Assembly (NCBI GenBank): GCA_017435615.1
Contig: JAFSET010000060.1
Location: 1 to 33,934 of the forward strand
DNA: 33,934 nucleotides
From: Oscillospiraceae bacterium
Lineage (GTDB): Bacteria; Bacillota; Clostridia; Oscillospirales; Oscillospiraceae
Reading direction: 5' to 3'
Part shown: positions 2,358 through 33,208 of the stretch, piece after piece
How positions within the stretch are numbered: the first letter of the stretch is position 1
Layout: each line of letters begins with the position of its first letter
Notes under the pieces: generated by a model
The model's database searches: none
Told to the model about the DNA's origin: nothing
What the model saw: the letters and a program-made list of their open reading frames with translations, nothing else
Translations under genes and position numbers: made by a program

Positions 2358-2672
2358 TTACAGGGTGCTTGCAGGCAGGGAATCGACCCGATTCATTGCC
2401 TGGCTCTCAGCATCCATATAGGTCTGAGCCATTGCTTCCAGATCGGTGGAGTGCTCCACGATCATACGGTTGATGGTGTCCATTGCGGTCTGCAATGCGT
2501 TGAATTTTGCACGGTAAGCCTCGGCAGCGTTGCCTTCCCAGCCGGCGGCAGTAGCGTTGGTTCTCTGGATCATATCATCGTGCAGAGCCTTTACCTGCAG
2601 AGCCATGCTGCGGAAAGTCTGAGATTTTTGCTGAAGAACTTCGGGAGTAACAAGCAGTGTACCTTGAATCAT
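2358..2672 (-). CDS. WXG100 family T7SS protein (copy A)
   Basis: At 104 residues this is a standard-size WXG100 (ESAT-6/EsxA-like) helical hairpin. The turn motif W45-E-G47 lies in TAAGWEGNAAEAY, followed by the usual small-residue helix start, and the C-terminal export signal YxxxE is present (YMDAE). Such proteins form four-helix-bundle dimers, are exported by the EssC ATPase, and often act as partners for larger substrates. It is the last of five WXG100 genes in tandem and lies next to the LXG gene, which makes it a possible targeting partner of the LXG effector. A GGAG ribosome site precedes ATG 2672. Confidence 0.92.
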   Translation of the reverse strand: MIQGTLLVTPEVLQQKSQTFRSMALQVKALHDDMIQRTNATAAGWEGNAAEAYRAKFNALQTAMDTINRMIVEHSTDLEAMAQTYMDAESQAMNRVDSLPASTL

Positions 2673-2726
2673 AATAAATGCTCCTTTTTATTTTAATAGT
2701 AGGTTGATGTGAATGAAGATTTGAGA

Positions 2727-3026
2727 TTAGTAAACTCTGGTGACCGCGGTGGAAGCGTTGTTTTCCTCGGCGGTGGAGTAGGTCTGCACAATGAACTGCA
2801 GAGCCTCTACGTACTGGTCGATGAGAGCGGCGAACTCGTCCCACTTCTCACGGTCGCTTGCCAGTGCGGTGTTGAACTTATCGTTTGCCTCGCCCTGCCA
2901 CATGGTGGCCAGCTCGTTGGCGCAAGTCATCAGGTCGTTGACCCGGGCCCGGAACTGGTTGTTATCCTCGTTCAGGGTGCTGATGGCATTGTTAAGCTCG
3001 GTAGCGGTTACGCTAAATTTAGACAT
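2727..3026 (-). CDS. WXG100 family T7SS protein (copy B)
   Basis: This 99-residue protein is a canonical WXG100 helical hairpin with W43-Q-G45 at the turn (ATMWQGEANDKF) and the export motif YxxxE (YSTAE) near the C-terminus. Its ribosome site is the strongest in the array: AGGAGG lies about 8 nt before ATG 3026 in an A-rich leader, so this copy may be made in the largest amount. It is likely the EsxA-like structural or partner substrate of the system, as a homodimer or heterodimer with a neighbouring copy. Dimer pairing cannot be read from sequence alone. Confidence 0.93.
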   Translation of the reverse strand: MSKFSVTATELNNAISTLNEDNNQFRARVNDLMTCANELATMWQGEANDKFNTALASDREKWDEFAALIDQYVEALQFIVQTYSTAEENNASTAVTRVY

Positions 3027-3084
3027 TTTATTTTCCTCCTGATTTGTTTTTTAATTTTAACCGGTTTTACCGGCAGATTACGGA

Positions 3085-3393
3085 TTAATAGTTTCTGTTG
3101 GTTGCGATCTCCAGAGCCTTCAGCTCCGAATTCCGGAAGATCGCAGCCACCTCACGGATGGTACCGGCGATCTCATACAGCCGGTTGGCTGTTTTCTGAA
3201 TATTGCCTGCCGTCAGGTCCATCTTGTCGATGTAGGCGGCGGCACAGTCACCTTCCCAGGCAGCCTGAAGCTGGGCCTTTACATTGGGCAGGTTTGTGTT
3301 TGAGATCCTGACCATGCTGTCAGCACAGCTTTCCAGCTTGCGCGCCTGTGCAATGGCATTATTGAAGGTAATATCGATCATTTTTCTTGTCAC
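3085..3393 (-). CDS. WXG100 family T7SS protein (copy C), GTG start
   Basis: This 102-residue WXG100 protein has W46-E-G48 (QAAWEGDCAAAY) and the C-terminal signal in the variant form FxxxE (FRNSE), with Phe in place of Tyr. The start is best placed at GTG 3393: AAGGAGG lies 8 nt upstream of it, whereas the in-frame ATG at 3381 would be about 20 nt away. The loss of the export tyrosine is the one visible departure from its neighbours. It may be exported only as the passive half of a heterodimer, which is an inference. Confidence 0.9.
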   Translation of the reverse strand: MTRKMIDITFNNAIAQARKLESCADSMVRISNTNLPNVKAQLQAAWEGDCAAAYIDKMDLTAGNIQKTANRLYEIAGTIREVAAIFRNSELKALEIATNRNY

Positions 3394-3407
3394 AGCAGGA
3401 TCCTCCT

Positions 3408-3722
3408 TTAGAACGAGATATTGGGCAGCTCCTCTGCCGCGGACTGCGCGGTTTGCTCAGCCTCGGAATAAACACCGGCCATGGTGTTCAGATCTCTGAC
3501 GTGCTCGGTATACCGGGCAATGATCTCTTCGGTTTCTTCCACATGCTCCTCATACATGGCCCGGTGGGCATCGCCGGCCTGGCCGACCCAGTAGACCGAA
3601 GATGTGGACATGGTGCTTTTCATTGTCTGAAAGCAGGAGTCCATGGTTCTGATGTATCCGGACAGGGTCGAGGCCGCAGCCTGCATTTCCTCCGGGGATA
3701 CTTTTAATACGCCAATTGCCAT
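3408..3722 (-). CDS. WXG100 family T7SS protein (copy D)
   Basis: This 104-residue WXG100 protein has W45-V-G47 (SSVYWVGQAGDAH) and export motif YxxxE (YSEAE). Only about 14 nt separate its stop from the GTG start of copy C, and the ribosome site of copy C lies inside this gap, so the two are probably co-translated. That arrangement would suit an EsxA/EsxB-type pair of one YxxxE-bearing and one FxxxE-bearing subunit. An AGGAGGGG-type ribosome site precedes ATG 3722. Confidence 0.92.
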   Translation of the reverse strand: MAIGVLKVSPEEMQAAASTLSGYIRTMDSCFQTMKSTMSTSSVYWVGQAGDAHRAMYEEHVEETEEIIARYTEHVRDLNTMAGVYSEAEQTAQSAAEELPNISF

Positions 3723-3736
3723 ATCCTACCCCTCCT

Positions 3737-4045
3737 TTATGTGTCTGACGAAAGCCGCAGGCTGGAGATCTTGTCCCATACGGTATCGTGGCACTTATCG
3801 TACTCTTGCCTTGCATACTGCATACAATCGATCAGATTTTGGATCTCCTTCATCAGGTTGGTCAGCCGATTGCTGTCCACCATAACCTGACGCTGGAATT
3901 GGTAGTGTGCCGGACCTTCCCACATGGTACTCAGTTGCTCCATACAGCTAAACACATTGTCCCGGGCGCTCTGCAACGCCTCAAGCTGCTGGTTCATCGT
4001 ACTGATATCACTGTTAAGCTGCTGCGTGCTGATTTCTATTTGCAT
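3737..4045 (-). CDS. WXG100 family T7SS protein (copy E)
   Basis: This 102-residue WXG100 protein has W42-E-G44 (STMWEGPAHYQF). A YxxxE match (YARQE) lies near the C-terminus, slightly earlier than in the neighbours. The tail carries Cys and Trp residues (YDKCHDTVWDKI) not seen in the other copies. It starts 14 nt before copy D in the same operon. Sequence divergence among the five copies is high, so they are probably not recent duplicates and may serve different partners. Confidence 0.9.
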   Translation of the reverse strand: MQIEISTQQLNSDISTMNQQLEALQSARDNVFSCMEQLSTMWEGPAHYQFQRQVMVDSNRLTNLMKEIQNLIDCMQYARQEYDKCHDTVWDKISSLRLSSDT

Positions 4046-4071: not shown

Positions 4072-4434
4072 TCATTCCGGATCCCAGGGATCCCACTGCA
4101 TCGGCGCGATCACGTCTGTCCATTGAAAATTCCAAATGCCTGGCACGATAGACGGCATATTCGGGATCTCCGTTCGATCAAGGATCCGGTCCTCACAGTC
4201 GGTATAGCACTGTGCGATCTGCTCCAACGCAAGTCTCAGCTTTTCCAGATCCATAAGCTGTGCCTCGGTTCGGGCCGCCGCTTGTTGCAGCACCGGCAGG
4301 AAGTCATCTCCGATGCTTTCCCGGCTCAGCGCCTTTGCGATCTGCTGAATTCCGTCGCTGAGCTCACTCATTTTTCTGACCATCGGTTGGAACTGCAACG
4401 TTTGTCTGTATAGCTCATCTGTATTGACTTTCAT
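4072..4434 (-). CDS. Truncated LXG-like head protein with YxxxE motif
   Basis: This 120-residue protein is first in the substrate operon and has no W-x-G. It aligns by eye with the N-terminal head of the LXG effector in this locus (gene ending at 1221). Both share KVNT near the start, a D-x-IQQ helix, and the export motif followed by Cys (YTDCE at 77-81 here, YKDCE in the LXG protein). A downstream WTDV/WTDI segment is also shared. After the motif it ends in a short Trp/Pro/Asp-rich tail (WDPWDPE) in place of an effector domain. It could be a stand-alone targeting partner (Lap-like) or a relic of an LXG gene. Its clean start, ribosome site and promoter argue for a working gene. Confidence 0.75.
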   Translation of the reverse strand: MKVNTDELYRQTLQFQPMVRKMSELSDGIQQIAKALSRESIGDDFLPVLQQAAARTEAQLMDLEKLRLALEQIAQCYTDCEDRILDRTEIPNMPSIVPGIWNFQWTDVIAPMQWDPWDPE

Positions 4435-4456: not shown

Positions 4457-4485
4457 AGCATAGCGCAAACATTTCCATTCGTCAA
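4457..4485 (-). promoter_or_regulatory. Sigma-A-type promoter of the substrate operon
   Basis: On the minus strand TTGACG (4485-4480) and TATGCT (4462-4457) are separated by exactly 17 nt, close to the TTGACA/TATAAT optimum. The predicted start, about 7 nt downstream, lies almost at the ribosome site of the 4434 gene, giving a very short leader. This is the only long gap (107 bp) between yukD and the WXG100 array, so the substrates can be transcribed apart from the secretion core. Confidence 0.65.
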
Positions 4486-4494
4486 TCAAAGTGC

Positions 4495-4525
4495 GACGAA
4501 CAGCAGCTTTGATGGGACGAACGAC
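4495..4525 (-). promoter_or_regulatory. Probable LytTR operator (tandem half-sites, 21-bp spacing)
   Basis: The 7-mer GACGAAC occurs at 4495-4501 and again at 4516-4522, exactly 21 bp apart, or about two helical turns. On the coding strand each half-site reads GTTCGTC, containing the GTTN[AG]T core of LytTR-type sites. The pair lies just upstream of the -35 element, as expected for an activator. The same 31-bp layout recurs at 33400-33430 (24 of 31 bases identical). A LytTR protein is encoded about 1 kb away. Confidence 0.6.
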
Positions 4526-4541
4526 ATTTTTTTGCTGTTTT

Positions 4542-4790
4542 TCAGATGAAAAGCAGCCGTTCTCCTGAGGTAACACCGTTCTGGCTCAGGGTCTTGTTCA
4601 GGTCCAGACGGCACTGCCGCTGCACGCTGTACAGAAAGATGGTTTGTTCACCGGACTGGAAGCTCCGGGAGCAGGTCCGGGCAACCATCCCGGCGATCTC
4701 CTCGGCAATATCCCAGCCATATACATTCTCGTCCAGTTGGAAATCAATGGTCTTTCCCAGCTCCGGACATTCTACATCTACAAGGATCAT
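4542..4790 (-). CDS. YukD/EsaB-like ubiquitin-fold T7SS protein
   Basis: This protein of 82 residues has the size and pattern of YukD/EsaB: an opening beta strand (MILVDVECPELGKTIDFQL), a helix (GWDIAEEIAGMVA), a strand pair ending in LDLNKTL, and the closing GVTSGERLLFI strand typical of ubiquitin-like folds. YukD/EsaB is a small cytosolic core or regulatory component of Bacillota T7SS. I place the start at ATG 4790 because it overlaps the upstream stop as ATGA, which implies coupled translation; a longer in-frame extension to 4826 lies inside the upstream gene. It is the last gene before the promoter gap. Confidence 0.82.
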   Translation of the reverse strand: MILVDVECPELGKTIDFQLDENVYGWDIAEEIAGMVARTCSRSFQSGEQTIFLYSVQRQCRLDLNKTLSQNGVTSGERLLFI

Positions 4791-5467
4791 AATTTGCTTG
4801 CTCCTTCTACAATGCTCCGCAGACATTCATCCAAATGAGCTGCGGTCAAGGTGGTTCGGTTGATCTGCTCGCCGTGGGGCCACTCCAGCCAGGGGATGCA
4901 CTGGTCGTAAACGCCCCGGAGCCAATGTCTGCGCTCCCCGGTATCCGGGTCCGCTACCTCCAGGACAAAAATACCCTTTTGCAGGAGCTGCTCCAAGGTC
5001 CAGGAGGGCAATACCGGCTCCGGCTCCTCTGGCTCTGTCAGCTCCACAACCGGCTCATAAGGCTCCAGCGCCAAATGCTCCAACAGGCTTTGCATCAGCG
5101 TATCCGGATACATCGGCATCAGGGAAAAGCCGCCGTAGGCGGTTATGCTCAGGGCCGTCATAGCCTCCTTATGCTGGTAGTACATCACCGGCCGGATGCG
5201 GCTGTCGGAAGCGTGCAGCGTCAGAACATTCCGGGCAAATACCACCGGCGTCAGCAGCTCATGCCAATCTCTGCGCAAACGGAAGGCCCCGTCGGTTTGG
5301 GTCATGATCCCGTCCGCGACCATACTGCAGCAGGCCGTCCACAGGGCTTGCTCATCCACGGCTGTTTCATTTTCCTGGTTCAGGCAGTATAGCTGTTTTT
5401 TGCCGGCCATGGACATGACCGCGGCAAATTCATTTTGCTTCATATAATAGCTTTCCTGAAGACTCAC
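4787..5467 (-). CDS. Uncharacterised T7SS-locus protein, faint EspG-like pattern
   Basis: The protein has 226 residues and I cannot assign a family with confidence. It lacks a signal peptide and TM segments. The N-terminal half (about 40-95) runs ALWTACCSMVADGI, then a short turn, LRRDWHELLTPVVFARNVLTL. This loosely recalls the opening of mycobacterial EspG substrate chaperones, which have a helix, a 'GLL' turn, then a helix with a conserved 'vla.p...v' strand. A Pro/Glu-rich linker (about 139-152) leads to a C-terminal part with LRGVYDQCIPWLEWPHGEQ. It starts at GTG 5467, overlapping the LytTR stop (GTGA), with an ATG alternative at 5443, and ends in an ATGA overlap with yukD. Its place between regulator and YukD supports a cytosolic T7SS role. 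Chaperone function is a guess. Confidence 0.5.
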   Translation of the reverse strand: MSLQESYYMKQNEFAAVMSMAGKKQLYCLNQENETAVDEQALWTACCSMVADGIMTQTDGAFRLRRDWHELLTPVVFARNVLTLHASDSRIRPVMYYQHKEAMTALSITAYGGFSLMPMYPDTLMQSLLEHLALEPYEPVVELTEPEEPEPVLPSWTLEQLLQKGIFVLEVADPDTGERRHWLRGVYDQCIPWLEWPHGEQINRTTLTAAHLDECLRSIVEGASKL

Positions 5468-6177
5468 GCAAACACCGCCTTTACTTCCGCTTTGTAGCTT
5501 CTGGATATGGGCACCATCATGCCGCCGTCCATCAGAAGCAGATTTTGGCCGTACTGAATTTCCGTGACCCGGGACCGGTTCACCACATAGCTCTTATGCA
5601 CCCGGATAAAGCCCTCCGGAAGCTCCTGATGGAGCTTTTCCAGAGTGCCGTAAAAGGGGATCTCCTGACGCTGAACGTGCAGGAAAAGCTTTTTATCCCG
5701 GGCCTCAAAAAACAAAATATCCTTATAGGAATACCGCTTCACTACACCCCGGACCTCCACCGGGAACAGGTCCTGCTCCTGCGTGTCTGCCTGACCAATG
5801 GGCATTGTGGCGATCACCTCCCACAGCACCTTGCTGGTATCCTCTGCCTGCAACGGCCGCCACAGCAGAGCGGTCGGCAGGATGGTGGGGCGGATGTAGG
5901 TGACCGGGGAAACGGTCCCATCCGCCAAAAGCACCAGCTTCATTTGAGCATTATGCTTCCGCAGCCGTTCCAGCACCGGGATCACACCGTTGGCGGTGAC
6001 ATCGCACACCAAAAGCTGCAAAGCATCCTCACCGTCTGTATAGGTAGCCAGCTTTTCCACCTTTTCCGCAAAAACCGGCAGGCGGTTTTCGCCCTTTTTC
6101 TTCAGCAAAAATCCCACAACACCGGAAAGTGCGGACATTTCTGCCCGTTTTGGTGCCATAATCACATAGGGTCTCAT
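5464..6177 (-). CDS. LytTR-family DNA-binding response regulator-like protein
   Basis: This 237-residue protein has a clear LytTR DNA-binding domain at about 138-237: VEVRGVVKRYSYKDILFFEARDKK, then GFIRVHKSYVVNRSRVTEI, then MVPISRSYKAEV, the classic pattern of AgrA/LytR-type regulators. The first 125 residues look like a receiver domain worn down: LLVCDVTANG places an Asp (D59) at the usual phospho-acceptor position, but the N-terminal acidic pair expected near residues 8-10 is absent. No histidine kinase is in the window, so control by classical phosphorelay is doubtful. Its start lies 2 nt after the essC stop. Tandem LytTR-like sites occur upstream of two promoters in this locus, making it the likely regulator of its own cluster. 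Confidence 0.88.
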   Translation of the reverse strand: MRPYVIMAPKRAEMSALSGVVGFLLKKKGENRLPVFAEKVEKLATYTDGEDALQLLVCDVTANGVIPVLERLRKHNAQMKLVLLADGTVSPVTYIRPTILPTALLWRPLQAEDTSKVLWEVIATMPIGQADTQEQDLFPVEVRGVVKRYSYKDILFFEARDKKLFLHVQRQEIPFYGTLEKLHQELPEGFIRVHKSYVVNRSRVTEIQYGQNLLLMDGGMMVPISRSYKAEVKAVFA

Positions 6178-6179: not shown

Positions 6180-9100
6180 TTAAGCTCCCGTCTGTTCGGG
6201 CGCAAGGCCCTTATTCATGGGTATGACGATCTCGTCCACATTCATGTTGTCTTCATTGCTTGCCACGTAGCCGATACCCGGCTTCAGGCTTCTGTTCTGA
6301 TCGGCAAAGGGAATATTCCGGTAGGACAGCAGCTTCTGGGTGCTCAGCTCACCGCCCAAATGCACACCCTGCTTGCCCCGGACAAAGCCGCGGTAGATAG
6401 CCTGCAGGGATACACCTGCCAGCTCCTGGGTGTCCACAGTGCCAAAGAAGAAGATGTTATGCTGGGCGCCCTTGACAATGATATTCTCCACCTGAGCCGC
6501 CATCGAAGGCAATCCGTCACCGGGATTATTACAGGCATTGATGAAGTCCGGCAGATCCGCGATCAGCACAAAGATCTTTTGGTAATCCGCCATCTTTTGG
6601 AAGATTTCTTCCTCCTCCAGGCCCTGCTGGACCAGGTCCTTCAGCCGCACATGCCGGTCGTTCACCGTCAAGATCAGCTCACGCCACATCTCAAACAGAG
6701 CCTTGGGCGTGGTGATATGCTCGGCACCCACCAGATTTGCCGTCCGGATCTCTGTCTGCTGGCCCATTCTGTCCACCAGTAGTACCCGGCTGCCCTGTTG
6801 GGCCGCGGCACAGGCCACGTTGCGCAGAAATACGCTCTTACCGGAACGGCTTCTGCCGGAGATCTGATAGCAATAGGTCTTGCTCAGGTCTACACTGTAC
6901 AAAGAGGCATCCTCACGCAGATAAGCCAGGGGCAGGTATCTTCCCTCTGCAAGCTGCTGACGGTATTCCTCCAACTGGGTAAAGCCGGTCCATACAGGTT
7001 CCTTGGGGATCTGGGGGATCTGCGCTGCACGCTTGCCCTGCCAAAGCTGGGCAATCTTTGCGCACCGCTGGGCGATCTGCTCGCTTCTGGCGTAGTCGTC
7101 GCCGGGGGCTGCCAGCGCCGTCTGATACTCCAAAATACTGTCGGCACACTGGCACAGGCCACGGCCGTGAATACCGCTTTCCGGCAGCACATCAAATTGC
7201 ATGGTCCGCAAACATTCGCCGTAGCTGTACTTGCCGTCCATTTCCAGGCACAGCACCTGGCGGAGCTTATCTCCGATCTTGGCCTGGATCTCGCCGGTAC
7301 CGAAGCCGCCGGCGGAGATGCACAGGAAAATACCTAAGCCTGCGCCGTCACGGGCCAGCTCCAAAATATGGTTTTCATAAGCGTTTTCCGTCTTCTCCCG
7401 GAAGCTTGCGTAGCCGTCGATCATAAAGATCACAGCCGGCACCACATTGCCGTGGGCGCTGATATATTGCAGGAAGGAGCCGCCACGGAACAGAGCCTTA
7501 CGGCTTTGCAGCATCCGGCGCATCATCAAAAACAGCCGGGACAGCTTTTCCGTCTCACCTTCATACACCACGCCGCCGGTATGGGGCAGCTCTTCGAAGG
7601 GGGCAAGCATCTGACTGGAATAGTCCACCGCATAGATATTCAGCATATCCGGCGTGTGGCTTTGGGCCAGGGCGTAGGCAATGGTCTGCATCAGCACGCT
7701 CTTGCCGCTGGAAACCGCACCGCAGATGGCCATATGGCCACCCTGCAGAAAGTCGACGGTCAGGGGGAACTGGGCCTGATTTTGAGGATCGTCCACCATA
7801 CCCACTGTGGCTCTGAGGGTGGTTTTGGCAGGCATACTGTTCCACTGGCTGTCCTGGATCCAAGGCTCTACCTTGCCCTGAAGCTGATCTATCAGCAGCG
7901 TTTCCGGCAGCACCGGCATCCACAGCTTCAGGCCGCAGATATAGCCGCTGTCTTCGGCCACATCCGCCAAATACTCCACCACCGCATCCAACTGGGTCTT
8001 ATCCTTCGGCTCCGGCAGCTTTTTGCCCTGGGACTGTGCATCCCGCAAAATAGCCTCCGCAGCCTCCTGTGCCGGCAGGGCAAGCTGCTTTTTATACTGC
8101 TCCATAAAATCATTGAGCTGGCGGCGGTTAAACACGCTGTCGGCGTAGTCCACGCCCTGCTCACGGAGCATAGCAAAAATTTTCTCCGGCACAAACTCCG
8201 CATCCACGCAGCACTTGACCAGCTTTTGCAGCCACTGCAGCTTCTTATCCTGCAGCTTCCGGGCCCGGGCGCTGCCGCCGATCATCACCGCCTTGCCGCT
8301 GTTTTCCAATTGCACGGCAAAGTTATTTCGGATAAACAGGTCGTCCTCATCGTACACCGCGCCGCTCCAGCCGGACTGGAACAGCTCATAGATCTCGTCG
8401 TTACCCACCTGCAGGTAGCAGCGTCCTGCCTGGGTCAGATAGGCCGCATCCGGCTTGTGCAGCATATCCTTACTGTCCTGCTTGTCCGCCACACGCAGAC
8501 ACAGCCGGAATTTTGTATTGGACCAAATGTTGTCATCCACGGTGCCGGAGGGCTTTTGGGTAGCCAGGATCAAATGCACACCCAGGCTTCGTCCCACCTG
8601 GGCCACAGAGATCAGCTCACGCATAAACTCCGGCTGCTCCCGTTTCAGCTCCGCAAATTCGTCAATGATAATGAACAGGTGCGGCACCGGCAGAGAGGCC
8701 TCGCCGCTTTTCACCAGCTTGGTATAGGCATCGATATGGTTGACGCCGTACTCATTGAAGATCTTCTGTCTGCGGACATTTTCACTCTTAATGGACACCA
8801 TGGCCCGGCGCACCTGGTTGCCGGAAAGGTTGGAGATGGTGCCCAGCATATGGGGAAGCTTGTCAAACAGGTTGGCCATACCGCCGCCCTTAAAGTCGAT
8901 GATGAAGAAGCCTACGTCAAGGGGGCTGTAATTGATGGCCAAAGAGAGAATGTAGGTCTGCAGGGTCTCACTTTTACCGGAGCCGGTGGTGCCGGCGATC
9001 AGGCCGTGAGGACCGTGATGCTTTTCGTGAATATTCAGATAGCAAGGCACACTGCCGGCTTTTACGCCTACCATTGCCTGCATGGTCTGATAGGTACGGT

Positions 9101-11123
9101 TTTTCTTCCAGTTATCCAGGGCATCCAGCTCCTGCACCCGGCTGACCCCCAGCATCTCCAGGAAGGTCAGGGAGTCCGGCAGATCGCTGCCGGCACCGGT
9201 CTCCACCACTCGGATACCGGATATCTTTCTTGCAAGCTGCTCCGCCTGGGCATTGCCCACATAATCAAAGGTGATGCGCTGAGGCTCTCCGCCGTCGGGG
9301 CTCATGGAATACATACCCTTAAAGCCGGGGTTGGACTCGATGATATAGTCACAGCTATTGGGAAGATCCTCAAAGCGCTCGGCCATCAACAGGGTGGTCA
9401 CGCCGATCTTCTCCGGATCGTCGTACAGGTATTTGGTAATGGACTCAGACTCCAGCAGCTCGCAGGACTCCACCATCACCACATACTGCACCGGCAGCAC
9501 TGCCTGCCGGGACGGGCCGGCCTCCGCCTCGTCTTTCCGGGAACGGAAAATTTGGGTCAGCTCATAACAGACGCCGTTGACCTCGGATTTTTTCAGGGCA
9601 ACATAGCGCTGAGAACGTTCGTTGTTCCAGGTGTGGGGCAGCCATTTGACAAAGGACCAGTCCTGTCCGGTGCTGCCGTCACCCAGCATTGCCATCCGCA
9701 CGTCGGTATAGCAGTTGTTGGCTGCGATCTGCACCGCCAAAACCCTGGCAATATCTGCCCGGTCCTTTCCCACGATGCCCACCACTCTGTGGGCAAACAG
9801 GTCCACAGTGATAGGCACCTGCAACAGCGTTGCATAAGTCTGCTTGATCTCCTGAGGACGGGCAGAAAGCTCGTCATGGTGCAAAGAAAAACGCTTTTTC
9901 GGTACAGAAATGGGCATTTGGAAGGGTACATCACCCAGTCCTAACCGGTAGTACATAAAGTCCTTATGGCCACGGTTCCGGTTCCAAAGCTCCTGGGTAT
10001 TCCGCCAATAATCGGCGCAGGCCTGTACATCCGGATACATTTCCAGCATGGCCTGGCGGTTATATTCATATTTACCACGGATCCGCTCAGCGCACTCCAT
10101 CAGATACTGGCCGTACTTCTGAATACGCCAAAGCTCGCCTTCTTTTTCCTCTTTTTTGCTGTGATTTAAGTTGACCGTGGCCCAGGTCACACTGATAATG
10201 GCAGAGGCCACAGCCGTCACCAGGCCCATGTACATAAACACATTGCCGCCGGTTCCGGTCATGGTTCTGGCGATGGCCATAAAGCCAAAGCCCAGCAGCA
10301 TAGGAAGTGCCATGGTCAGGCTGGGTCCGATGATCATCCACATAGGCTTGCGGTTGGTTACCTGCTTCTGGGGCGGACCTTCGATCTCCTCCGGCTCTGT
10401 ATGCAGGGAAAACTGCTTCCGGGGTGACCGGTGAAACAGTTGCTCCTGGGACTCCCGGTCTATGGCGGCGGGGGCAGTTCTCTCCGCCGGCTCTTCCACG
10501 GCATAATTTGCAATATTCTCGCTGAGCCTGGCACCACATTCTGTGGCATTGACTGCCAGCACATCGTGCAAATACACCATTTTCAGGCCGAATACGCTGA
10601 TCACATCACCAAACTGCAAATTGGCGGTGCCACGGATACGCTGGCCGTTCACATAGACGCCGTTGGTGCTGTGATCCTCCAGGGTAGCCACCCGGCCGTT
10701 AAAATTCATGGACAGGTGATGCCTGGAGATCACCTCATGGCAGTGATAGCAGATATCACACTGGGACTCCTTGCCCACACTGATCCGGCCCAGCCGGGAG
10801 GTGCTTAGCTTTTCATAAGCGCCGATCTGGGTGCTTTGCTCCAGCACCAGCAGGGTAAACAACGTATTGTCAAACAGAACAGACAGCACATCTGTGCCGG
10901 AAAAGGGCTTTTCCAGCCAGTCCTCGGAGCCTTTGAACACCGTGTATTTTCCGGTACTTTTCACACGCCATTGGTGATCCAGGATCTCCAGCTCCAGATT
11001 TAAGGGCTTGCGCAGACCAAACTTGGACGCGGACAGGGATACGGTATGGTCCGCATTGTTAATGGCAGGCAGCAGCACTTCCTCGCAGGCTGTTTCTGTA
11101 TAGATTGAAAGCAACAGGCTCAT
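6180..11123 (-). CDS. essC: EssC/YukBA-type T7SS FHA-FtsK/SpoIIIE ATPase
   Basis: This is the motor of the T7SS, a membrane ATPase that recognises and exports WXG100/LXG substrates. It has 1,647 residues, somewhat longer than typical EssC (about 1,480). Residues 1-95 resemble the degenerate first FHA. A canonical FHA at about 108-186 has GRISVG, SRHH (133-136) and STNGVYVNG (152-160). Two TM segments follow at about 262-285 and 293-317. A nucleotide-free-looking module (about 435-640) precedes three FtsK modules. Module 1 has Walker A GTTGSGKS (711-718) and an intact Walker B, IIIDEF (D821-E822). Module 2 has GAVSSGKS (1135-1142) but MIDGY in place of DE. Module 3 has GRSRSGKS (1423-1430) and IADLP. 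So only the first ATPase keeps a catalytic Glu. It overlaps the upstream gene by ATGA. Confidence 0.95.
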   Translation of the reverse strand: MSLLLSIYTETACEEVLLPAINNADHTVSLSASKFGLRKPLNLELEILDHQWRVKSTGKYTVFKGSEDWLEKPFSGTDVLSVLFDNTLFTLLVLEQSTQIGAYEKLSTSRLGRISVGKESQCDICYHCHEVISRHHLSMNFNGRVATLEDHSTNGVYVNGQRIRGTANLQFGDVISVFGLKMVYLHDVLAVNATECGARLSENIANYAVEEPAERTAPAAIDRESQEQLFHRSPRKQFSLHTEPEEIEGPPQKQVTNRKPMWMIIGPSLTMALPMLLGFGFMAIARTMTGTGGNVFMYMGLVTAVASAIISVTWATVNLNHSKKEEKEGELWRIQKYGQYLMECAERIRGKYEYNRQAMLEMYPDVQACADYWRNTQELWNRNRGHKDFMYYRLGLGDVPFQMPISVPKKRFSLHHDELSARPQEIKQTYATLLQVPITVDLFAHRVVGIVGKDRADIARVLAVQIAANNCYTDVRMAMLGDGSTGQDWSFVKWLPHTWNNERSQRYVALKKSEVNGVCYELTQIFRSRKDEAEAGPSRQAVLPVQYVVMVESCELLESESITKYLYDDPEKIGVTTLLMAERFEDLPNSCDYIIESNPGFKGMYSMSPDGGEPQRITFDYVGNAQAEQLARKISGIRVVETGAGSDLPDSLTFLEMLGVSRVQELDALDNWKKNRTYQTMQAMVGVKAGSVPCYLNIHEKHHGPHGLIAGTTGSGKSETLQTYILSLAINYSPLDVGFFIIDFKGGGMANLFDKLPHMLGTISNLSGNQVRRAMVSIKSENVRRQKIFNEYGVNHIDAYTKLVKSGEASLPVPHLFIIIDEFAELKREQPEFMRELISVAQVGRSLGVHLILATQKPSGTVDDNIWSNTKFRLCLRVADKQDSKDMLHKPDAAYLTQAGRCYLQVGNDEIYELFQSGWSGAVYDEDDLFIRNNFAVQLENSGKAVMIGGSARARKLQDKKLQWLQKLVKCCVDAEFVPEKIFAMLREQGVDYADSVFNRRQLNDFMEQYKKQLALPAQEAAEAILRDAQSQGKKLPEPKDKTQLDAVVEYLADVAEDSGYICGLKLWMPVLPETLLIDQLQGKVEPWIQDSQWNSMPAKTTLRATVGMVDDPQNQAQFPLTVDFLQGGHMAICGAVSSGKSVLMQTIAYALAQSHTPDMLNIYAVDYSSQMLAPFEELPHTGGVVYEGETEKLSRLFLMMRRMLQSRKALFRGGSFLQYISAHGNVVPAVIFMIDGYASFREKTENAYENHILELARDGAGLGIFLCISAGGFGTGEIQAKIGDKLRQVLCLEMDGKYSYGECLRTMQFDVLPESGIHGRGLCQCADSILEYQTALAAPGDDYARSEQIAQRCAKIAQLWQGKRAAQIPQIPKEPVWTGFTQLEEYRQQLAEGRYLPLAYLREDASLYSVDLSKTYCYQISGRSRSGKSVFLRNVACAAAQQGSRVLLVDRMGQQTEIRTANLVGAEHITTPKALFEMWRELILTVNDRHVRLKDLVQQGLEEEEIFQKMADYQKIFVLIADLPDFINACNNPGDGLPSMAAQVENIIVKGAQHNIFFFGTVDTQELAGVSLQAIYRGFVRGKQGVHLGGELSTQKLLSYRNIPFADQNRSLKPGIGYVASNEDNMNVDEIVIPMNKGLAPEQTGA

Positions 11124-12109
11124 AACTCTCTCCTCTGAAATTGATGGATATGCACGGTTTTATTGGACTGGTTCTGATGGAAAATAAATTTCGTCTTGGC
11201 AAAAGCCACCCGGTCTCCATCACGGAGCAGCACCATTTTTCTTGGGGGAAGCCGCTCCGAGTTGTAATAGGTGCCATTGGCGGACTCCAGGTCGATCAGG
11301 TAGTACCCATCCTCCCGGCCCACGATCTTGGCGTGTCTGCGGCTGACACCGGGATCCCCGGAAATCGTCTGATGGCACTGAGAGCCATCCCGGCCGATAA
11401 CCACCAGATCGTCATCCAGCACGATTCGCTGACTGCCATCCTCCCTTTCCAGCCAGGCATCCACAAAGCTGGCAGCAGGCCGCACTACGGCCTTCTTTTG
11501 CTGCCGGTTTTTCTTTTCCTCTGCCTTTTGGTTTTGCTCCTTGCGGTTTTGCAGCCAAAAATCCAAAAACTGCTGCAGCATCTCCCGGAAGGCCGGCAGA
11601 TCAAAATGCTCATGCATGGCAAAAAAGTCACAGTACATCTGCACCAGCTTTTTATGCAGGCCGCTGCCGCAGACCGCATCCTGCAAGCCCCGGTAGAAAT
11701 CCTGCATACTGGTCTGCGGTTTTTCCAGCCGCACAATGGGCCAATATACCATATGGATGCTATGATTGACCGTATCCATAAAGATGGTATCCCAGCTCCA
11801 GCTCAGATTTTCCATCCGAAGGCCTAATTTTTCGCAGTCCATGGCGATCTGCATAGTATCCCACAAAATGGCCATCAGCAAACGCTGGCGCATAGGCACG
11901 CTGTAATAGGCAGCCAGAGGGACCGCGTTGGCAAGCTGGGCGTGGACTGTGCACACCCGGCCCTTTTCTGTCACGGTGACCGGGGCAATATGGGCCACCG
12001 CACCGTGATTGAGAATTTTCAATTCTTCCACATGGACCCGTTCAAACTTGCCCAATTGATCTGTCAGCCAAACGCTGTTTTCCAGGTTGACGATTTTCCG
12101 TTTTCCCAT
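11120..12109 (-). CDS. Pseudokinase-like (DUF6382/EssB-like) protein with C-terminal FHA
   Basis: This 329-residue protein has two parts. Residues 1-190 are globular, without kinase catalytic motifs, but with a segment (LLMAILWDTMQIAMDCEKLGL, then SWSWDTIFMD, then MVYWPI and FYRGL) that recalls the inactive kinase fold of EssB/YukC and the DUF6382 domain often fused to FHA. A basic Gln/Lys linker (190-208) follows. The C-terminal FHA (about 225-312) is canonical: GR (239-240), SRRH (256-259), ESANGTYYN (275-283). Unlike EssB it has no clear TM segment. Its stop overlaps the essC start (ATGA), so the two proteins are probably made in equal amounts and interact. It may replace EssB as the EssC partner while reading phosphothreonine. 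FHA is certain; EssB kinship is tentative. Confidence 0.82.
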   Translation of the reverse strand: MGKRKIVNLENSVWLTDQLGKFERVHVEELKILNHGAVAHIAPVTVTEKGRVCTVHAQLANAVPLAAYYSVPMRQRLLMAILWDTMQIAMDCEKLGLRMENLSWSWDTIFMDTVNHSIHMVYWPIVRLEKPQTSMQDFYRGLQDAVCGSGLHKKLVQMYCDFFAMHEHFDLPAFREMLQQFLDFWLQNRKEQNQKAEEKKNRQQKKAVVRPAASFVDAWLEREDGSQRIVLDDDLVVIGRDGSQCHQTISGDPGVSRRHAKIVGREDGYYLIDLESANGTYYNSERLPPRKMVLLRDGDRVAFAKTKFIFHQNQSNKTVHIHQFQRREL

Positions 12110-12144
12110 ATCTTTCTGCCTCTCTAACGTTGCTGTTTATGCGA

Positions 12145-12179
12145 AACGCCCCGACCGGAGTTCATCCAGTCGGGGCGTT
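12145..12179 (-). terminator. Strong intercistronic hairpin, possible terminator/attenuator
   Basis: Arms of 11 bp (12145-12155 and 12169-12179, core CGCCCCGAC/GTCGGGGCG) pair perfectly, with two more G-C pairs inside past one mismatch. On the minus strand the stem is followed only by TTTCGCATAAA, a weak U-tract; on the plus strand a T6 run lies 5 nt beyond the stem. It sits in the 115-nt gap between the degenerate-FHA gene and the FHA/essC gene pair. It probably lowers read-through into the secretion core. No separate promoter is evident in the remaining 35 nt. Confidence 0.5.
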
Positions 12180-12224
12180 CTCCGTTTTTTCATGGCCGTA
12201 TGTTCCGGCCGTTTCAGGTGTGGC

Positions 12225-12653
12225 TTACGGCTCCTCGGATACGACCCGCGTGATCAAAAACACACTTTTTCCCATTTCCAAACGGTCTCCGGGCTTAAAC
12301 TGTGTGGGGAAATCCAACCGTCTTCCGTTGAGGACTGCCGGATTTACCGCGGACATATTATGAACCAGAAGCGTACCGCCCTGATCAAAAATCATACAGT
12401 GCTCACTGCTGACTGTTATATCCGGTTCTGCAGGCACAGGGCCGGAGGCATAGTACAGCAGAGAGGTCCGTCCTACGATCATATGACCGCTGAACTGTAG
12501 CTGGACCACATAGCCGTGGCAAATATTCCAAAGCTCCACATACCAGAGCCCCCGTTTGGGCTGCTCCTTCTCGTTGAACAGTAAAAATACCGCCAAAACA
12601 CCGACTGCGATCAAAATCACGATGATCGCTGCCGAAATTGCTACAATTTCCAC
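12225..12653 (-). CDS. Membrane-anchored protein with degenerate FHA domain
   Basis: This 142-residue protein has an N-terminal TM segment (about 5-26, AISAAIIVILIAVGVLAVFLLF) followed by Lys/Glu residues, so the FHA domain (about 45-138) should lie in the cytosol. The fold signature is present (VGRTS at 60-64, LNGRRL, FKPGDRLEMG), but the phosphothreonine loop reads SSEH where SRH is usual and the NG motif is displaced (SAVNPAVLNG). Phosphopeptide binding may be weak or lost. The start is GTG 12653: GGGGAG lies 6 nt upstream and the ribosome site overlaps the stop of the preceding gene. It is likely a membrane partner in the kinase/FHA network. Confidence 0.8.
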   Translation of the reverse strand: MEIVAISAAIIVILIAVGVLAVFLLFNEKEQPKRGLWYVELWNICHGYVVQLQFSGHMIVGRTSLLYYASGPVPAEPDITVSSEHCMIFDQGGTLLVHNMSAVNPAVLNGRRLDFPTQFKPGDRLEMGKSVFLITRVVSEEP

Positions 12654-12665
12654 AGTTTTCTCCCC

Positions 12666-14225
12666 TTACTTCGGGCCTGCGTGCTCTGTGTTGGCAGGAA
12701 CATTGGTGACGGTCACCTCGCCGTTGACAACACGGCAGACCTGCCAGCCGTTTTCCAGTCCGGCGGGAACGTCCACCACAGAGTGGAGCTCAGAGCCAAC
12801 GTAGATCTTAACCTGAGCCTGGGAGTAGGACATGGTGCCGCTGCCGGTGAAGTCCACCACCACGAATTCGTATGTACCCTCGGTGTCATACAAGGTGGTG
12901 GTCTCCGGGCCGAAGCCGTTGACATCATCCACATCCAGCTCCGCAACCTTGTTGCCCTGGCTGTCGGAAACATACTTGTTGTAGTAGCAGCAGTTGGTGG
13001 AGGTGCCATTGCCGGAAGTGCCCACCAGGTAGCTGTCCAGATCCGTGGGAGAGGCGCTCCAGGTCAGCACAAAACGGATCACATTCTCCGGCATCACAGG
13101 AGAAATGCTGAAGGTCTGATAGTTCTGACCGGTCAGGATGTATGCCTCAAACAGCTCTGTAATGAAGCCCTCCTTGGAGATCTCCAGGGTATACACGCCG
13201 CTCTCTGTCAGCTCCAGAACCAGGTTGCCGGAGCCATCGGTCTTGCCTTCTACCGGGGTGCCGCTGGTGGTGTAGCCTGCATAGGCCTTTACCGTGGCAT
13301 CCGCAACGGACATACCGGTGGTGGCATCCAGCACGGTTACAGACAGATCGCTCTTTTCCACAACCACCAATTCATTGGAAGGCACGATGCTGTTTTGGCT
13401 GGCACTGGTGACCATCTCATTATCGTCGCAGATCACGGTCACATCGCAGTTATTGTACTTAAAGTTGATGGTATTTCCGGTCTTGGTGGCGCCGGTTACG
13501 CCGCTGAGGTTCTTCAGGACGGTGTAGGAGATCTCCTTCACGCCGCCGAACAAAATCATCACATTGTCCAGGCGGATCTCGTTGGGCTGATAGATGTTGT
13601 AGGGCACGCCCTTGGCGGTGTCGATCACCCGGTTGGAGGTGGTATCAAAGAACACCAGGGTTGCAGGCAGACCTTCCAGGCGGATCTGGTATTTTTCAGA
13701 CTCCACGGTGCTGGTCATAGTGCCGTAGCGGATGGTGTAATCACCGTAGGTGGCCATATTGAAAAAGCCCAGCATATCCTCATTCAAAATGGGGTTGTTC
13801 AGCTTTTCTACCTCAGCAGGGGTAGTTTCTGCCGGTGCTGCCTCGGTAGGTGTGGGCTCTTGCTGCTGCGGATCGGCAGGCTGAGTAGCATCTGCCTGCA
13901 TCACGATGGAGTTAAGCAGGCTGCTGTTGGCAGCGGACGCACCGGCTCTGGCATAACGCAGGGCCTCTGCGGCGTTGCCGCTGGTAACATAGGCATTGTA
14001 CATACCGATGTAAGCCTCTTCCCGGGTGCCGTCAATGCTGATCGCTTCCTGGAAAGCTAAGTAGGCGTTGTTAAAATCTCCCTGCTCCAGGTAGCGGTAG
14101 CCCAGAGCAACCTTGTCATCATAGCCGTTTCCGCCCATAAAAATGGCGGCTGCCGCGCCGGCAACGATCACCAGTACCGCGATCAAAGCTACGGCCGCAA
14201 GAATGATCTTCTTATTTTTGTTCAT
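12666..14225 (-). CDS. Membrane-anchored TPR-like protein with CarboxypepD_reg-like and YfaP/DUF2135-like domains
   Basis: This 519-residue protein has an uncleaved-looking N-terminal TM anchor (about 7-30) and is otherwise extracellular. Residues 36-100 form a TPR-like helical repeat (LGYRYLEQGDFNNAYLAFQEA). A Pro/Thr/Glu linker (about 112-140) leads to a beta-rich unit of unknown type (145-285). A segment at about 290-385 (VTVLDATTGMSVADATVKAY, TDGSGNLVLEL, GVYTLEISKEGF) looks like a carboxypeptidase-regulatory beta-sandwich. The C-terminus has LTWSASPTDLDSYL and ELDVDDVNGFGPET, the hallmark of YfaP/DUF2135 domains. It may be an extracellular carbohydrate- or surface-binding module of the system. 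The ribosome site GGAGGGG precedes ATG 14225. The exact role is unknown. Confidence 0.75.
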   Translation of the reverse strand: MNKNKKIILAAVALIAVLVIVAGAAAAIFMGGNGYDDKVALGYRYLEQGDFNNAYLAFQEAISIDGTREEAYIGMYNAYVTSGNAAEALRYARAGASAANSSLLNSIVMQADATQPADPQQQEPTPTEAAPAETTPAEVEKLNNPILNEDMLGFFNMATYGDYTIRYGTMTSTVESEKYQIRLEGLPATLVFFDTTSNRVIDTAKGVPYNIYQPNEIRLDNVMILFGGVKEISYTVLKNLSGVTGATKTGNTINFKYNNCDVTVICDDNEMVTSASQNSIVPSNELVVVEKSDLSVTVLDATTGMSVADATVKAYAGYTTSGTPVEGKTDGSGNLVLELTESGVYTLEISKEGFITELFEAYILTGQNYQTFSISPVMPENVIRFVLTWSASPTDLDSYLVGTSGNGTSTNCCYYNKYVSDSQGNKVAELDVDDVNGFGPETTTLYDTEGTYEFVVVDFTGSGTMSYSQAQVKIYVGSELHSVVDVPAGLENGWQVCRVVNGEVTVTNVPANTEHAGPK

Positions 14226-14271
14226 ACTTTCCCCTCCGTTTATTATATGGGCAGTCCTGAAAGGACGCCTT

Positions 14272-14556
14272 TCATTTCAACACCATAACGATCAGCATCA
14301 GCAGGATCAGCATAAACATCCCGCCTAACAGGATCAGTGCGAAATTTATTTTCATTTCCATAGCGTGGAGCTTTTTCTCTGTTTCGTAGCTATCCACTTT
14401 TCTTCTGCCGGCAGAATAGATCTCGTGACCGGTCACACCGCCGTTTCGGGAAAAATCCTGCATATTCCAGGTGGTGCTCTGGATATACATGGTTCCGCCG
14501 CAATAGGGGCAAACCGGCTGATTGCCGACTTCGCTGTGACATTTGGGACATCTCAT
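14272..14556 (-). CDS. Zinc-ribbon single-TM membrane protein
   Basis: This protein of about 94 residues has an N-terminal zinc ribbon, CPKCH then CPYCG, with two CxxC knuckles spaced 9 residues apart. A polar middle with YSAGRRKVDSYETEKKLHAMEMKIN follows, and a C-terminal TM segment (about 70-92, ALILLGGMFMLILLMLIVMVL) ends at the last residue. The ribbon should face the cytosol as a tail-anchored protein. I prefer ATG 14556 because AAAGG lies 9 nt upstream; the in-frame ATG at 14565 would leave no spacing. Zinc-ribbon proteins are common companions of Ser/Thr kinases and FHA proteins in Clostridia, but no function can be read here. Confidence 0.8.
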   Translation of the reverse strand: MRCPKCHSEVGNQPVCPYCGGTMYIQSTTWNMQDFSRNGGVTGHEIYSAGRRKVDSYETEKKLHAMEMKINFALILLGGMFMLILLMLIVMVLK

Positions 14557-14589
14557 CGTCCTCATCCTTTCTCTGTCACCGATTAGATT

Positions 14590-14709
14590 TTACGCATCTC
14601 GGATGGTTTTCCTGTGCCAGACGCTCAGCAGAAGCTGAGAGATGACCAGCGCCGCCACGCCGAGCACAACCAAGACAATTCCAAGGGTTTGCAATTGAGC
14701 TGCCGTCAT
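14590..14709 (-). CDS. 39-residue single-TM membrane protein
   Basis: This is a short gene found from its ribosome site. AGGAGG sits 5 nt before ATG 14709, and that ribosome site is itself encoded by the last codons (Ile-Gly-Gly) of the upstream kinase, whose TAA lies 1 nt before this ATG. The peptide starts MTAAQLQTLG, continues with a hydrophobic helix (about 9-30, IVLVVLGVAALVISQLLLSV) and ends in the basic tail WHRKTIRDA, stop TAA 14590-14592. Translational coupling and a well-formed TM helix with positive C-terminus support a real product. It may be a small regulator of the kinase or of secretion. I know no homologue. Confidence 0.7.
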   Translation of the reverse strand: MTAAQLQTLGIVLVVLGVAALVISQLLLSVWHRKTIRDA

Positions 14710-14710
14710 A

Positions 14711-16594: not shown

Positions 16595-16607
16595 AGGCTT
16601 ATTCCAG

Positions 16608-16638
16608 TTTGCCCCGGCGGTGTTGGCGCCGGGGCAAA
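16608..16638 (-). promoter_or_regulatory. Hairpin upstream of the atypical kinase gene
   Basis: TTTGCCCCGGC (16608-16618) and GCCGGGGCAAA (16628-16638) form a perfect 11-bp stem with a 9-nt loop, ending 13 nt before ATG 16594. No U-run follows. It lies in the 150-nt gap after the giant surface-protein gene. It may attenuate read-through, protect the 3' end of the long upstream message, or limit ribosome access to the kinase. A second short stem, GCAGCC/GGCTGC, lies at 16703-16718. Confidence 0.5.
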
Positions 16639-16744
16639 GGGTCGTTTCATCAGGAATACCGGGTGTACTCCGTTTGTTCGGACAGCAGCGTGGTGACAGG
16701 CGGCAGCCCGGAGGCTGCGGCCTGCATCCCGCTATCTGATTGGA

Positions 16745-26824: not shown

Positions 26825-26877
26825 ATTGTTACCTCCATTTTATGTGTATACCGGTGATCTTACCGCCGGATACTATA

Positions 26878-27501
26878 CTAAATCTGTTCGTTGGTGTGGA
26901 TCACCATGGTGTTTTCCACCACATCAAAGCGGATGGTGACCTTGCGTGCCTGCAGCACCGAGGTCGCGCCTGTGTCATCCCCGGCGCTGAGCACTGAAGT
27001 GGCACCGGCTTCCCCGTTACTGAGTACCGAGGTTTCCGCCATATCCCCACGCAGCACAGTGGTCTGCTGCATATCATCCTTCAGCACAGAGGTTTCCACG
27101 GTCTGTACCGGGGCGGCGGCAGGCTGGCCGTAGCCGCTGAAGCTTTCCGTATGCACGGCAGAGGGGTGCTGGACCGCCGGGTTCAGATCGCCGGTGGTCA
27201 CACCCAGCTTGCCGGAATGACCCAGCTTACCGCTGCGGCCCAATTTACCGCTGCGGCCTAACTTGCCGGAATGGCCCAAGTCACCGCTTTCGTGATGAAA
27301 GCGAAGCTTGCCGGTACGGGAATTTTGCTCCGCCATCCGCTCAATGGTCTCCCGTTTGGCCTTGCCGGTCAAAAAGGCGTGGATGGTCGGAATATCAAAA
27401 TAGAAGAAGAAAAATACGCCCAGACCCAGGCTCAGTGCCGTCAGGCCCAAAGATACATAAAACAGCGTATTATACAGAGAAATCAGTTGAATTGCTTCCA
27501 T
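26878..27501 (-). CDS. Membrane-anchored scaffold with SGKL repeats and five TxVL phosphosite-like motifs
   Basis: This 207-residue protein is not a family I know. One TM helix (about 13-36) is followed by basic residues (TGKAKRETIER), so the rest should be cytosolic. Residues 63-106 carry seven [ST]G[KD]L units, four of them perfect hexapeptides (GRSGKL or GHSGKL). Residues 135-183 carry five motifs every 10-12 residues: ETSVL (136-140), TTVL (147-150), ETSVL (156-160), ATSVL (167-171), ATSVL (179-183). The FHA-regulator phosphosites of GarA/OdhI are of the form ETTSVF, so these look like kinase targets that dock FHA domains. A short beta-rich tail (VTIRFDVVENTMVIHT) ends it. Its ATG overlaps the upstream kinase stop (TAATG), tying it to that kinase. 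Confidence 0.82.
   Translation of the reverse strand: MEAIQLISLYNTLFYVSLGLTALSLGLGVFFFFYFDIPTIHAFLTGKAKRETIERMAEQNSRTGKLRFHHESGDLGHSGKLGRSGKLGRSGKLGHSGKLGVTTGDLNPAVQHPSAVHTESFSGYGQPAAAPVQTVETSVLKDDMQQTTVLRGDMAETSVLSNGEAGATSVLSAGDDTGATSVLQARKVTIRFDVVENTMVIHTNEQI
26953..27099 (-). repeat. Five-fold TxVL motif array
   Basis: This stretch encodes five copies of (E/A)T(S/T)VL or TTVL at 10-12-residue intervals in the scaffold gene ending at 26878, separated by variable acidic/glycine spacers. Core conservation with changing spacers argues for selection on the motif and against simple DNA slippage. Confidence 0.8.
27202..27276 (-). repeat. 18-bp tandem repeat encoding GxSGKL hexapeptides
   Basis: Four consecutive 18-bp units encode G-(H/R)-S-G-K-L. 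The flanking units RTGKL, ESGDL and TTGDL are diverged copies. The repeat is in frame and gives a Ser/Lys/Gly-rich cytosolic segment just after the membrane anchor. Confidence 0.85.
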
Positions 27502-29249: not shown

Positions 29250-29271
29250 CTTTATACTCCTCCGTGCAGCT

Positions 29272-30591: not shown

Positions 30592-30611
30592 AGTCCTCTC
30601 TCCTTGGCCTG

Positions 30612-31379: not shown

Positions 31380-31394
31380 ACTTTCCTCCGGATG

Positions 31395-31423
31395 ACTGCC
31401 GGCCCGGCTTGCGGGCCGGCAGT
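31395..31423 (-). promoter_or_regulatory. GC-rich hairpin between protease and phosphatase genes
   Basis: A perfect 12-bp stem (31395-31406 with 31412-31423, core CTGCCGGCCCG/CGGGCCGGCAG) closes on a 5-nt loop. No U-run follows; the ribosome site of the phosphatase gene begins a few nt after it. It is too stable to be chance in a 96-nt gap and probably sets the ratio of protease to phosphatase message by processing or partial termination. Confidence 0.55.
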
Positions 31424-31475
31424 GATCGATACTAAATTGCGTTCATTCAGTCATTGCGACTGTATGGGTTTGTGA

Positions 31476-33017: not shown

Positions 33018-33208
33018 TTTGCTCTCTCCTGTCTAAAATTAATGATTGACCATCTCATTGGATGTGTCATTTATATATATCAAAGATCTGGTGATCTATT
33101 GATACCGCAAGGGGATCCGTCACGCCCGGTGCCGTGTTTACCCAAGGCCATTTCTGCCGCATGCACAGGAATTGGCGGTGCGTGGATGACAATAGGTCAT
33201 TATGGTGG

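Follow-up and report, generated by a model that had tools for sequence, protein, structure and literature searches.

Paired 21-bp direct repeats at two promoters of an Oscillospiraceae type VII secretion cluster are probable operators of the cluster's own LytTR regulator

Introduction

The closest described counterpart of the locus reported here is the T7SSi of Vallitalea, a type VII secretion system (T7SS) whose cluster contains the gene of a LytR-like regulator, TsiN, together with an ATPase that carries FHA domains. In the available text of that study, TsiN is suggested to control its cluster and is reported as unique to T7SSi, with no operator or target given (Garrett et al. 2024, PMC11217815). 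The T7SSe and T7SSj systems of the same source combine an FHA-bearing ATPase, a YukD-like protein, WXG100 proteins, a kinase, a PPM phosphatase, an FHA protein and a very large envelope protein, and the component lists in its available text hold no regulator (PMC11217815). The cluster analysed here lies in a stretch of 33,934 nucleotides from an Oscillospiraceae bacterium, which we call the window. It shares these T7SSe/T7SSj parts and the FHA-bearing ATPase of T7SSi, and goes beyond the T7SSe and T7SSj described there in having a trypsin-FHA protein and three kinases. It differs from T7SSi in that its LytTR gene stands between EssC and the YukD-like gene of a cluster resembling T7SSe and T7SSj, and in that operators can be defined for it by prediction.

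AgrA of Staphylococcus aureus is a quorum-sensing regulator fed by AgrC, and to our knowledge it is not encoded in any T7SS cluster. It resembles the regulator considered here in having a LytTR domain, in acting through direct repeats immediately upstream of the promoters that it activates, and in driving its own operon (PMC4227749), and Agr is one part of the circuit that acts on the S. aureus T7SSb (PMC10765036). LytTR regulators mostly bind upstream of the -35 element and activate (PMC11347149); in published systems most of their 9-bp repeats are separated by 12 bp, and a position 10 bp before the -35 is strongly favoured (PMC6193735). HdrRM and BrsRM share the LytTR regulator, such repeats near the -35 and positive autoregulation, and have as partner a membrane inhibitor from their own operon (PMC6193735), whereas the neighbour of the window's regulator is a 226-aa protein that matched no family and the regulator itself has a receiver-like N-terminus.

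No description of an operator or a LytTR gene in this type of cluster was found in the literature searched, which consisted mainly of titles and abstracts, with supplements and most subscription papers outside it. In the available part of PMC9239048, a LytTR gene and T7SS genes appear in separate table rows. As far as these searches go, the placement of the regulator gene, its spread and the definition of its operator are new, and the parts are of known kinds.

The T7SS cluster

The genes described here, between positions 33017 and 391, are all encoded by the minus strand. Read in that direction, they encode a trypsin-FHA protein, a PP2C phosphatase, two kinases, a 207-aa protein, a 3359-aa protein, a kinase-TPR protein, a 97-aa protein, a TPR protein, two FHA proteins (the first of them small), EssC, the LytTR regulator, a 226-aa protein and a YukD-like protein; past an intergenic element described below as operator 1 follow a WXG-like protein, five WXG100 proteins, a 355-aa protein, a DUF4176 protein and a 181-aa protein. 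Gene order and strand suggest that the machinery genes at 11120..33017 (minus strand, assigned with Pfam), from the trypsin-FHA gene to the FHA gene next to EssC, belong to one operon.

The ATPase EssC/TsxC (6180..11123, minus strand, 1647 aa) has an N-terminal FHA domain and matches TIGR03928 (1048.6 bits against a cut-off of 778.4), PF01580 and PF00498; together with the PF06013 WXG100 proteins this marks the system as a T7SS of the EssC type. The only other match to the EssC search in the genome (contig C71, residues 703-900, E 2.5e-25) is probably FtsK. The five WXG100 genes (2358..4045, minus strand; 3737-4045, 3408-3722, 3085-3393, 2727-3026 and 2358-2672) are the only ones in the genome to match PF06013, four of them over the cut-off. 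They are headed by the first gene past operator 1, that of the 120-aa WXG-like protein (4072..4434, minus strand), which gave a weak match to a WXG profile (E 6.1e-5) and none in the Pfam scan. Further downstream on the same strand, the 355-aa protein (1221-2288) is a candidate substrate by its position and matched nothing in Pfam or NCBIfam, and the next gene (908-1192) encodes a DUF4176 protein (PF13780, E 2.9e-25). The YukD/EsaB-like protein (TsxB; 4542..4826, minus strand) was assigned by position and by reading its sequence; Pfam and NCBIfam scans gave no match to it, and it matches the proteins at the same position in relatives.

EssA, EssB and EsaA are components of T7SSb. None of the three was matched in a Pfam scan that covered 20 cluster proteins, one of the five WXG100 proteins among them. 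Set against the T7SSe list (TseA, A2, B, C, D, F, H, I, J and K), the cluster has A-, B-, C-, D- and F-like genes, a TseJ-like protein recognised through its FHA domain (DUF6382 at 20.6 bits, below the cut-off of 26.7), and a TseI-like protein whose likeness is one of size only. The 3359-aa protein (16745-26824), which has no match in Pfam or NCBIfam, resembles in this way the TsdI/TseI envelope component; over its C-terminal 650 residues it matches proteins of comparable size next to the T7SS loci L106 and L108.

The 226-aa protein (4787..5467, minus strand) lies between the LytTR and YukD-like genes, a position kept by its homologues in relatives. It had no match in Pfam or NCBIfam, and a direct search of 394 genomes with it returned only itself. 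The best structure match of its family profile was 7ue2 (named RPB_PLP3_R6, E 2.4e-7), replication-terminator matches followed at E 0.03, and one of 50 homologues weakly matches DUF5081. An identity as EspG was considered and set aside, as neither an EspG family nor an EspG structure was detected by sequence in the protein and 49 homologues. Of the two features compared with T7SSi, the window has the LytR-like regulator, and EspG was not detected in the 226-aa protein at this level.

The LytTR regulator

The gene at 5464..6177 (minus strand), which had been read as that of a LytTR protein from the sequence by eye, encodes a 237-aa regulator with a receiver-like, degenerate N-terminus and a LytTR domain at residues 149-235 (PF04397, E 5.7e-23, 81.4 bits against a cut-off of 22.6). 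All 54 aligned homologues match the LytTR domain at E 0.01 or better, and by sequence search the DNA-binding domain is homologous to that of AgrA (structure 3bs1). The profile of the 54-row family aligns to full-length ComE (4cbv) over residues 6-235.

Canonical receivers have an acid pair, a phosphoacceptor Asp and a switch Lys. In the homologues the phosphoacceptor position, that of the conserved Asp59, is Asp in 48 of 54 and Glu in 4, the acid pair is lost or not conserved, and the switch Lys position is Arg in 40 and Lys in 9; Pfam Response_reg is reached at E 0.01 or better by a single member of the 54. By these residues the receiver domain is degenerate and falls outside the canonical response regulators. 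No histidine kinase family was found among the 20 cluster proteins scanned.

Among 59 relatives, of which 36 belong to the same genus, direct protein search found no close relative of the regulator (best E 4.9e-9). A profile search of 400 genomes of the family matched 147 at 1e-15, of which 14, the genome's own included, lie below 1e-46; the next are a truncated copy in G499 at 2.8e-29 and the rest from 4.8e-28.

Paired elements in the window

An earlier note, made by reading the letters of the window, had described two similar 31-bp elements at 4495-4525 and 33400-33430, each with two half-sites 21 bp apart. Both pairs were verified in the sequence, with the core GACGAAC starting at 4495 and 4516 and GACAAAC at 33400 and 33421, and a count by hand on the letters bore out the 24 of 31 identical bases. 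The genes concerned are all on the minus strand, so the orientation of the operator is GTTYGTC-N14-GTTYGTC; across the family the unit that repeats extends beyond 7 bp, to about TGYCGTTCRTCMG. Operator 1 (4493..4527, minus strand) has the half-sites ATGTCGTTCGTCCC (4514-4527) and CTGCTGTTCGTCGC (4493-4506), and operator 2 (33398..33432, minus strand) the half-sites CGGTCGTTTGTCCT (33419-33432) and GTGCTGTTTGTCGT (33398-33411), both with a period of 21 bp. On the minus strand they read TGTCGTTCGTCC-N9-GCTGTTCGTCGC, 5' of the gene at 4434, and GGTCGTTTGTCC-N9-GCTGTTTGTCGT, 5' of the gene at 33017. With the matrix learned from relatives (below) operator 1 scores 35.2 bits, the window being part of the training set, and operator 2, which was used only as starting seed, 29.1 bits.

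The pattern GACRAAC-N14-GACRAAC occurs twice in the window without mismatch and in none of 100 dinucleotide shuffles; when up to 2 mismatches are allowed, the same two sites are found and 17 of 100 shuffles also reach two. The earlier note had named wide occurrence at unrelated loci as the outcome that would speak against it. A scan of the genome (2,273,506 bp in 98 contigs, exact pattern only) returned two matches, operators 1 and 2, both in the cluster and none at unrelated loci, and the reversed control pattern had no match in the same sequence. Since the genome is 76.6% complete, extra copies may lie in the missing part.

Operator 1 lies between the YukD-like gene (4542-4826) and the WXG-like gene (4072-4434) and marks an internal promoter of the cluster. 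Operator 2 lies 381 bp upstream of the trypsin-FHA gene (31476-33017), and the gene that follows it is thus one of the machinery and not of a substrate. Gene context and genome scan together place one exact operator before the machinery and one before the substrates of the sole T7SS detected in this genome.

Two further features of the non-coding DNA are recorded here. Between operator 2 and the trypsin-FHA gene, the 381-bp leader contains two palindromes at 33205-33265, GTCTTCGCC..GGCGAAGAC and CTGGGGGGGTACCCCCCCAG, which are possibly an attenuator; the 86-bp stretch that holds them occurs once in the genome, with no second copy. At the contig end (33770-33812), TGTCATTGCGAGCCAGTGCTCACACTGGCGTGGCAATC has the look of a dispersed repeat.

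Conservation in relatives

Comparable loci were gathered through EssC from 200 genomes of the family and 391 of the class, the genome's own included, and by a further EssC search of genome contigs that matched 295 relatives, of which the best 80 were kept. Among these best 80, 68 have a matching LytTR gene, 10 do not, and 2 end too early for its presence to be judged. The order EssC-LytTR-x-YukD-WXG100 is conserved in the relatives that have LytTR, and clusters with LytTR between EssC and YukD are found in many Lachnospiraceae and Oscillospiraceae records; in the 10 loci without it, EssC is followed directly by YukD. The 79 loci with LytTR were reduced to 76 by dropping L092 (on the same contig as L150) and the near copies L173 and L192, and to 75 for the matrix scan by removing one region of fewer than 120 bases. 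L105 has an operator and stands outside the 75, its YukD being fused in the gene call. In Clostridium sp. chh4-2, two near-identical copies of the T7SS region lie on two scaffolds (L188 and L192).

A scan that presupposes no motif took the best 10-mer self-match at spacings of 10-39 from -30 bp to +300 bp of the YukD stop. At 21 bp, 26 of the 76 loci with LytTR reach at least 9 of 10 matching positions, and the 29 other spacings 0-5 loci each; 9 loci reach 10 of 10, and other spacings 0 or 1. None of the 10 loci without LytTR has such a 21-bp repeat behind YukD. The matrix learned from these regions has the consensus ATGCCGTTCGTCAG and at 21 bp exceeds 10 bits in 58 of the 75 loci with LytTR (17 score 10 bits or less), against 1-20 loci for each other spacing between 15 and 35; one of the 10 LytTR-less loci passes, with 10.3 bits. 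A matrix made from the window's four half-sites alone found an operator in 51 of the 74 other loci with LytTR, in none of the 10 without it and in 22 of 1480 shuffles, and 5-fold cross-validation of the operator matrix recovered 54 of 74. The association of operator and LytTR gene has a Fisher p of 3e-5, in which kinship is ignored. The conservation of operator 1 that the earlier note had asked about therefore holds across dozens of species, at the same gene junction, in most loci with LytTR, and the site is absent in nearly all of the 10 without. In the nearest relative (L149, EssC 72% identical), GTCGTTCGTC occurs twice, 21 bp apart.

The half-sites of one element had also been said to match each other where the two elements differ. 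This proved general, as half-sites agree at 8.29 of 14 positions within an element and at 7.38 (sd 0.21) between loci, and none of 5000 permutations reached the observed value. L174, among the low scorers, keeps a diverged 21-bp self-repeat. There ATTTCGGGGA occurs twice, and in L097 TTTCATTACA occurs twice. Both are direct repeats of 21 bp whose half-site is a different one, as though the two halves had changed specificity together.

Scanning 2.19 Mb of these loci (near copies included) with the matrix gave 77 pairs above 19 bits, compared with 1 in the same DNA shuffled in 200-bp blocks. The 25 pairs listed off the canonical position include operator 2, the canonical site of L105 and the near-copy pair of L188 and L192. 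Ten of the 25 precede a gene that matches the WXG profile (L094, L105, L107, L151, L154, L160, L162, L166, L225 and L266, with L105 and L107 near copies) and one a DUF4176-like gene (L151 24702). A few others stand before genes of machinery type or without assignment (L166 9194, L188 8102, L160 1740, L153 7457, L212 20483 and L094 15503), so that sites of the operator 2 kind are seen in few other loci (L166 9194, L188 8102); the contig of L149 extends about 18.5 kb upstream of EssC, compared with the roughly 22 kb needed to reach the position of operator 2. Four of the 25 lie inside other genes (L153 16851, two in L155, and L216) and look like chance matches.

In seven loci a second operator lies within the WXG100 array (L151 18111, L154 9646, L162 18077, L166 18187, L225 11434, L105 3321 and L107 6408). 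As it stands ahead of a later WXG100 gene, it suggests a pair with a promoter of its own.

Whether a locus has the LytTR gene is scattered on a quick EssC tree, where its absence takes 10 changes for 10 rows, at least 8 of them forced. Across 8 independent LytTR differences the operator differs in the same way in 4.9 on average, in the opposite way in 0.3 and not at all in 2.8, and the median p of this 8-pair test is 0.06. In a partial Mantel test over 54 loci, co-evolution of the LytTR DNA-binding domain with the half-sites did not reach significance once EssC divergence was accounted for (192 of 2000 permutations), and it reached it weakly with the LytTR N-terminus as covariate (47 of 2000). 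For the link between LytTR and operator these tests are suggestive only, and they limit, without contradicting it, the claim that the cluster's own LytTR reads the sites. The gap between YukD and the WXG gene is also shorter in loci without LytTR (median 31 bp, n=9, versus 108, n=71), so the association could be with having any promoter there.

Promoter geometry

Among the 58 operators above 10 bits, 55 have a -10 element with at least 4 of 6 consensus positions within the tested 26-32 nt after half-site 2; all 55 of these elements lie at 26-30 nt and 47 at 28 or 29, and control windows gave 7-23 of 58. The aligned promoters of the 58 operators show TGnTATAAT, and a -35 signal is not seen. A -10 at a fixed distance with no conserved -35 is what activator-like promoters look like. 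The operators are two direct repeats with a period of 21 bp upstream of the -35 region, within the 21-22 bp of LytTR-type operators, and by arithmetic, with a 17-bp spacer assumed, the -35 position falls some 8-9 bp past the second 9-mer. Period and distance agree with the published LytTR architecture (PMC6193735).

In the window, the -10 of the machinery operon (33363..33368, minus strand) is TATGGT preceded by TGC, 29 nt after half-site 2 of operator 2, a distance that agrees with the family position. The promoter of the WXG100 operon (4457..4485, minus strand) consists of TTGACG (4480-4485), a 17-bp spacer and TATGCT (4457-4462), with 30 nt from half-site 2 of operator 1 to the -10, close to the 28-29 of the family. 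It departs from the family in having a fair -35 and no TGn (extended -10), so that the case for activation is weaker here than for the family as a whole.

Discussion

The earlier note had proposed a T7SS regulon under LytTR control, and the uniqueness of the two elements in the genome together with the recurrence of operator 1 in relatives that have LytTR supports it. We consider it highly probable that both elements are operators for the cluster's own LytTR protein and that this protein activates the machinery and substrate operons through them; the whole is very probably a regulon dedicated to the type VII system. A LytTR dimer would bind the two direct half-sites, whose centres lie 21 bp apart on the same face of the DNA, and would bring RNA polymerase to a promoter of the sigma-70 type with its -10 at 28-30 nt downstream. 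Operator 2 would drive the machinery operon, and since this contains the LytTR gene, positive feedback would follow; operator 1 would drive the WXG100/substrate operon. Both gene runs are treated here as presumptive single operons.

Chance or a mobile-repeat remnant has almost no probability as the origin of the repeats. The 17 of 100 shuffles that reach two matches at 2 mismatches would allow it, against none without mismatch, and two copies only, in the same cluster, as well as conservation in relatives by the motif-free scan and the window-only matrix, contradict it. If the repeats are true operators, another DNA-binding protein encoded elsewhere might read them and the LytTR gene be a mere neighbour, for which the non-significant Mantel result against EssC divergence and the 17 of 75 loci with LytTR but no recognisable site could be cited. 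We judge this very unlikely. Each half-site of the window fits 7 of the 9 positions of a LytTR consensus that we take as the reference, and the sites are missing in 10 of 10 LytTR-less loci by the window matrix, or 9 of 10 by the trained one. The 21-bp period and the distance to the promoter are moreover those published for LytTR regulators (PMC6193735, PMC11347149), and LytTR is most likely the protein that binds.

That LytTR would bind as a repressor is quite unlikely. The fair -35 of the operator 1 promoter and the precedent of CoxC, a LytTR repressor with an operator overlapping the -35 (PMC11347149), fit repression, whereas a place upstream of the -35 position, a fixed spacing to the -10 and the lack of a conserved -35 in the family fit activation; an activator is the role that we infer. 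A separate matter, compatible with the operator reading, is whether LytTR is a classical response regulator served by a histidine kinase elsewhere in the genome. The Asp at the phosphoacceptor position in 48 of 54 homologues, with Glu in 4, and the alignment to full-length ComE speak for it, and the near-absence of Response_reg matches, the unconserved acid pair, the usual Arg in place of the switch Lys and the lack of a histidine kinase among the 20 cluster proteins against it, so that we hold it to be unlikely. With LytTR as the activator, the degenerate receiver and the lack of a histidine kinase family among the cluster proteins scanned suggest that the signal enters by a route other than the classical phosphorelay. 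Tentatively, a large group of T7SS of gut Clostridia may have a built-in switch independent of histidine kinases, in which the pseudo-receiver LytTR between the ATPase and the YukD subunit would sense the state of assembly or secretion, perhaps through the adjacent 226-aa protein or the Ser/Thr kinases of the cluster, and, through positive feedback, turn on both machine and WXG100 substrates.

In laboratory culture T7SSb machines are often weakly active or inactive (PMC10765036), and the study of their function is hampered by this. A dedicated activator with a defined operator, if the reading is true, would provide a reporter readout for the related group, make substrate genes findable through their promoters and open the switch-on signal to inquiry. 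That several relatives have operators within the WXG100 array suggests a use of the motif in nominating substrates, and from the similar sites before the substrate genes of many relatives, these export systems probably carry their own on-switch.
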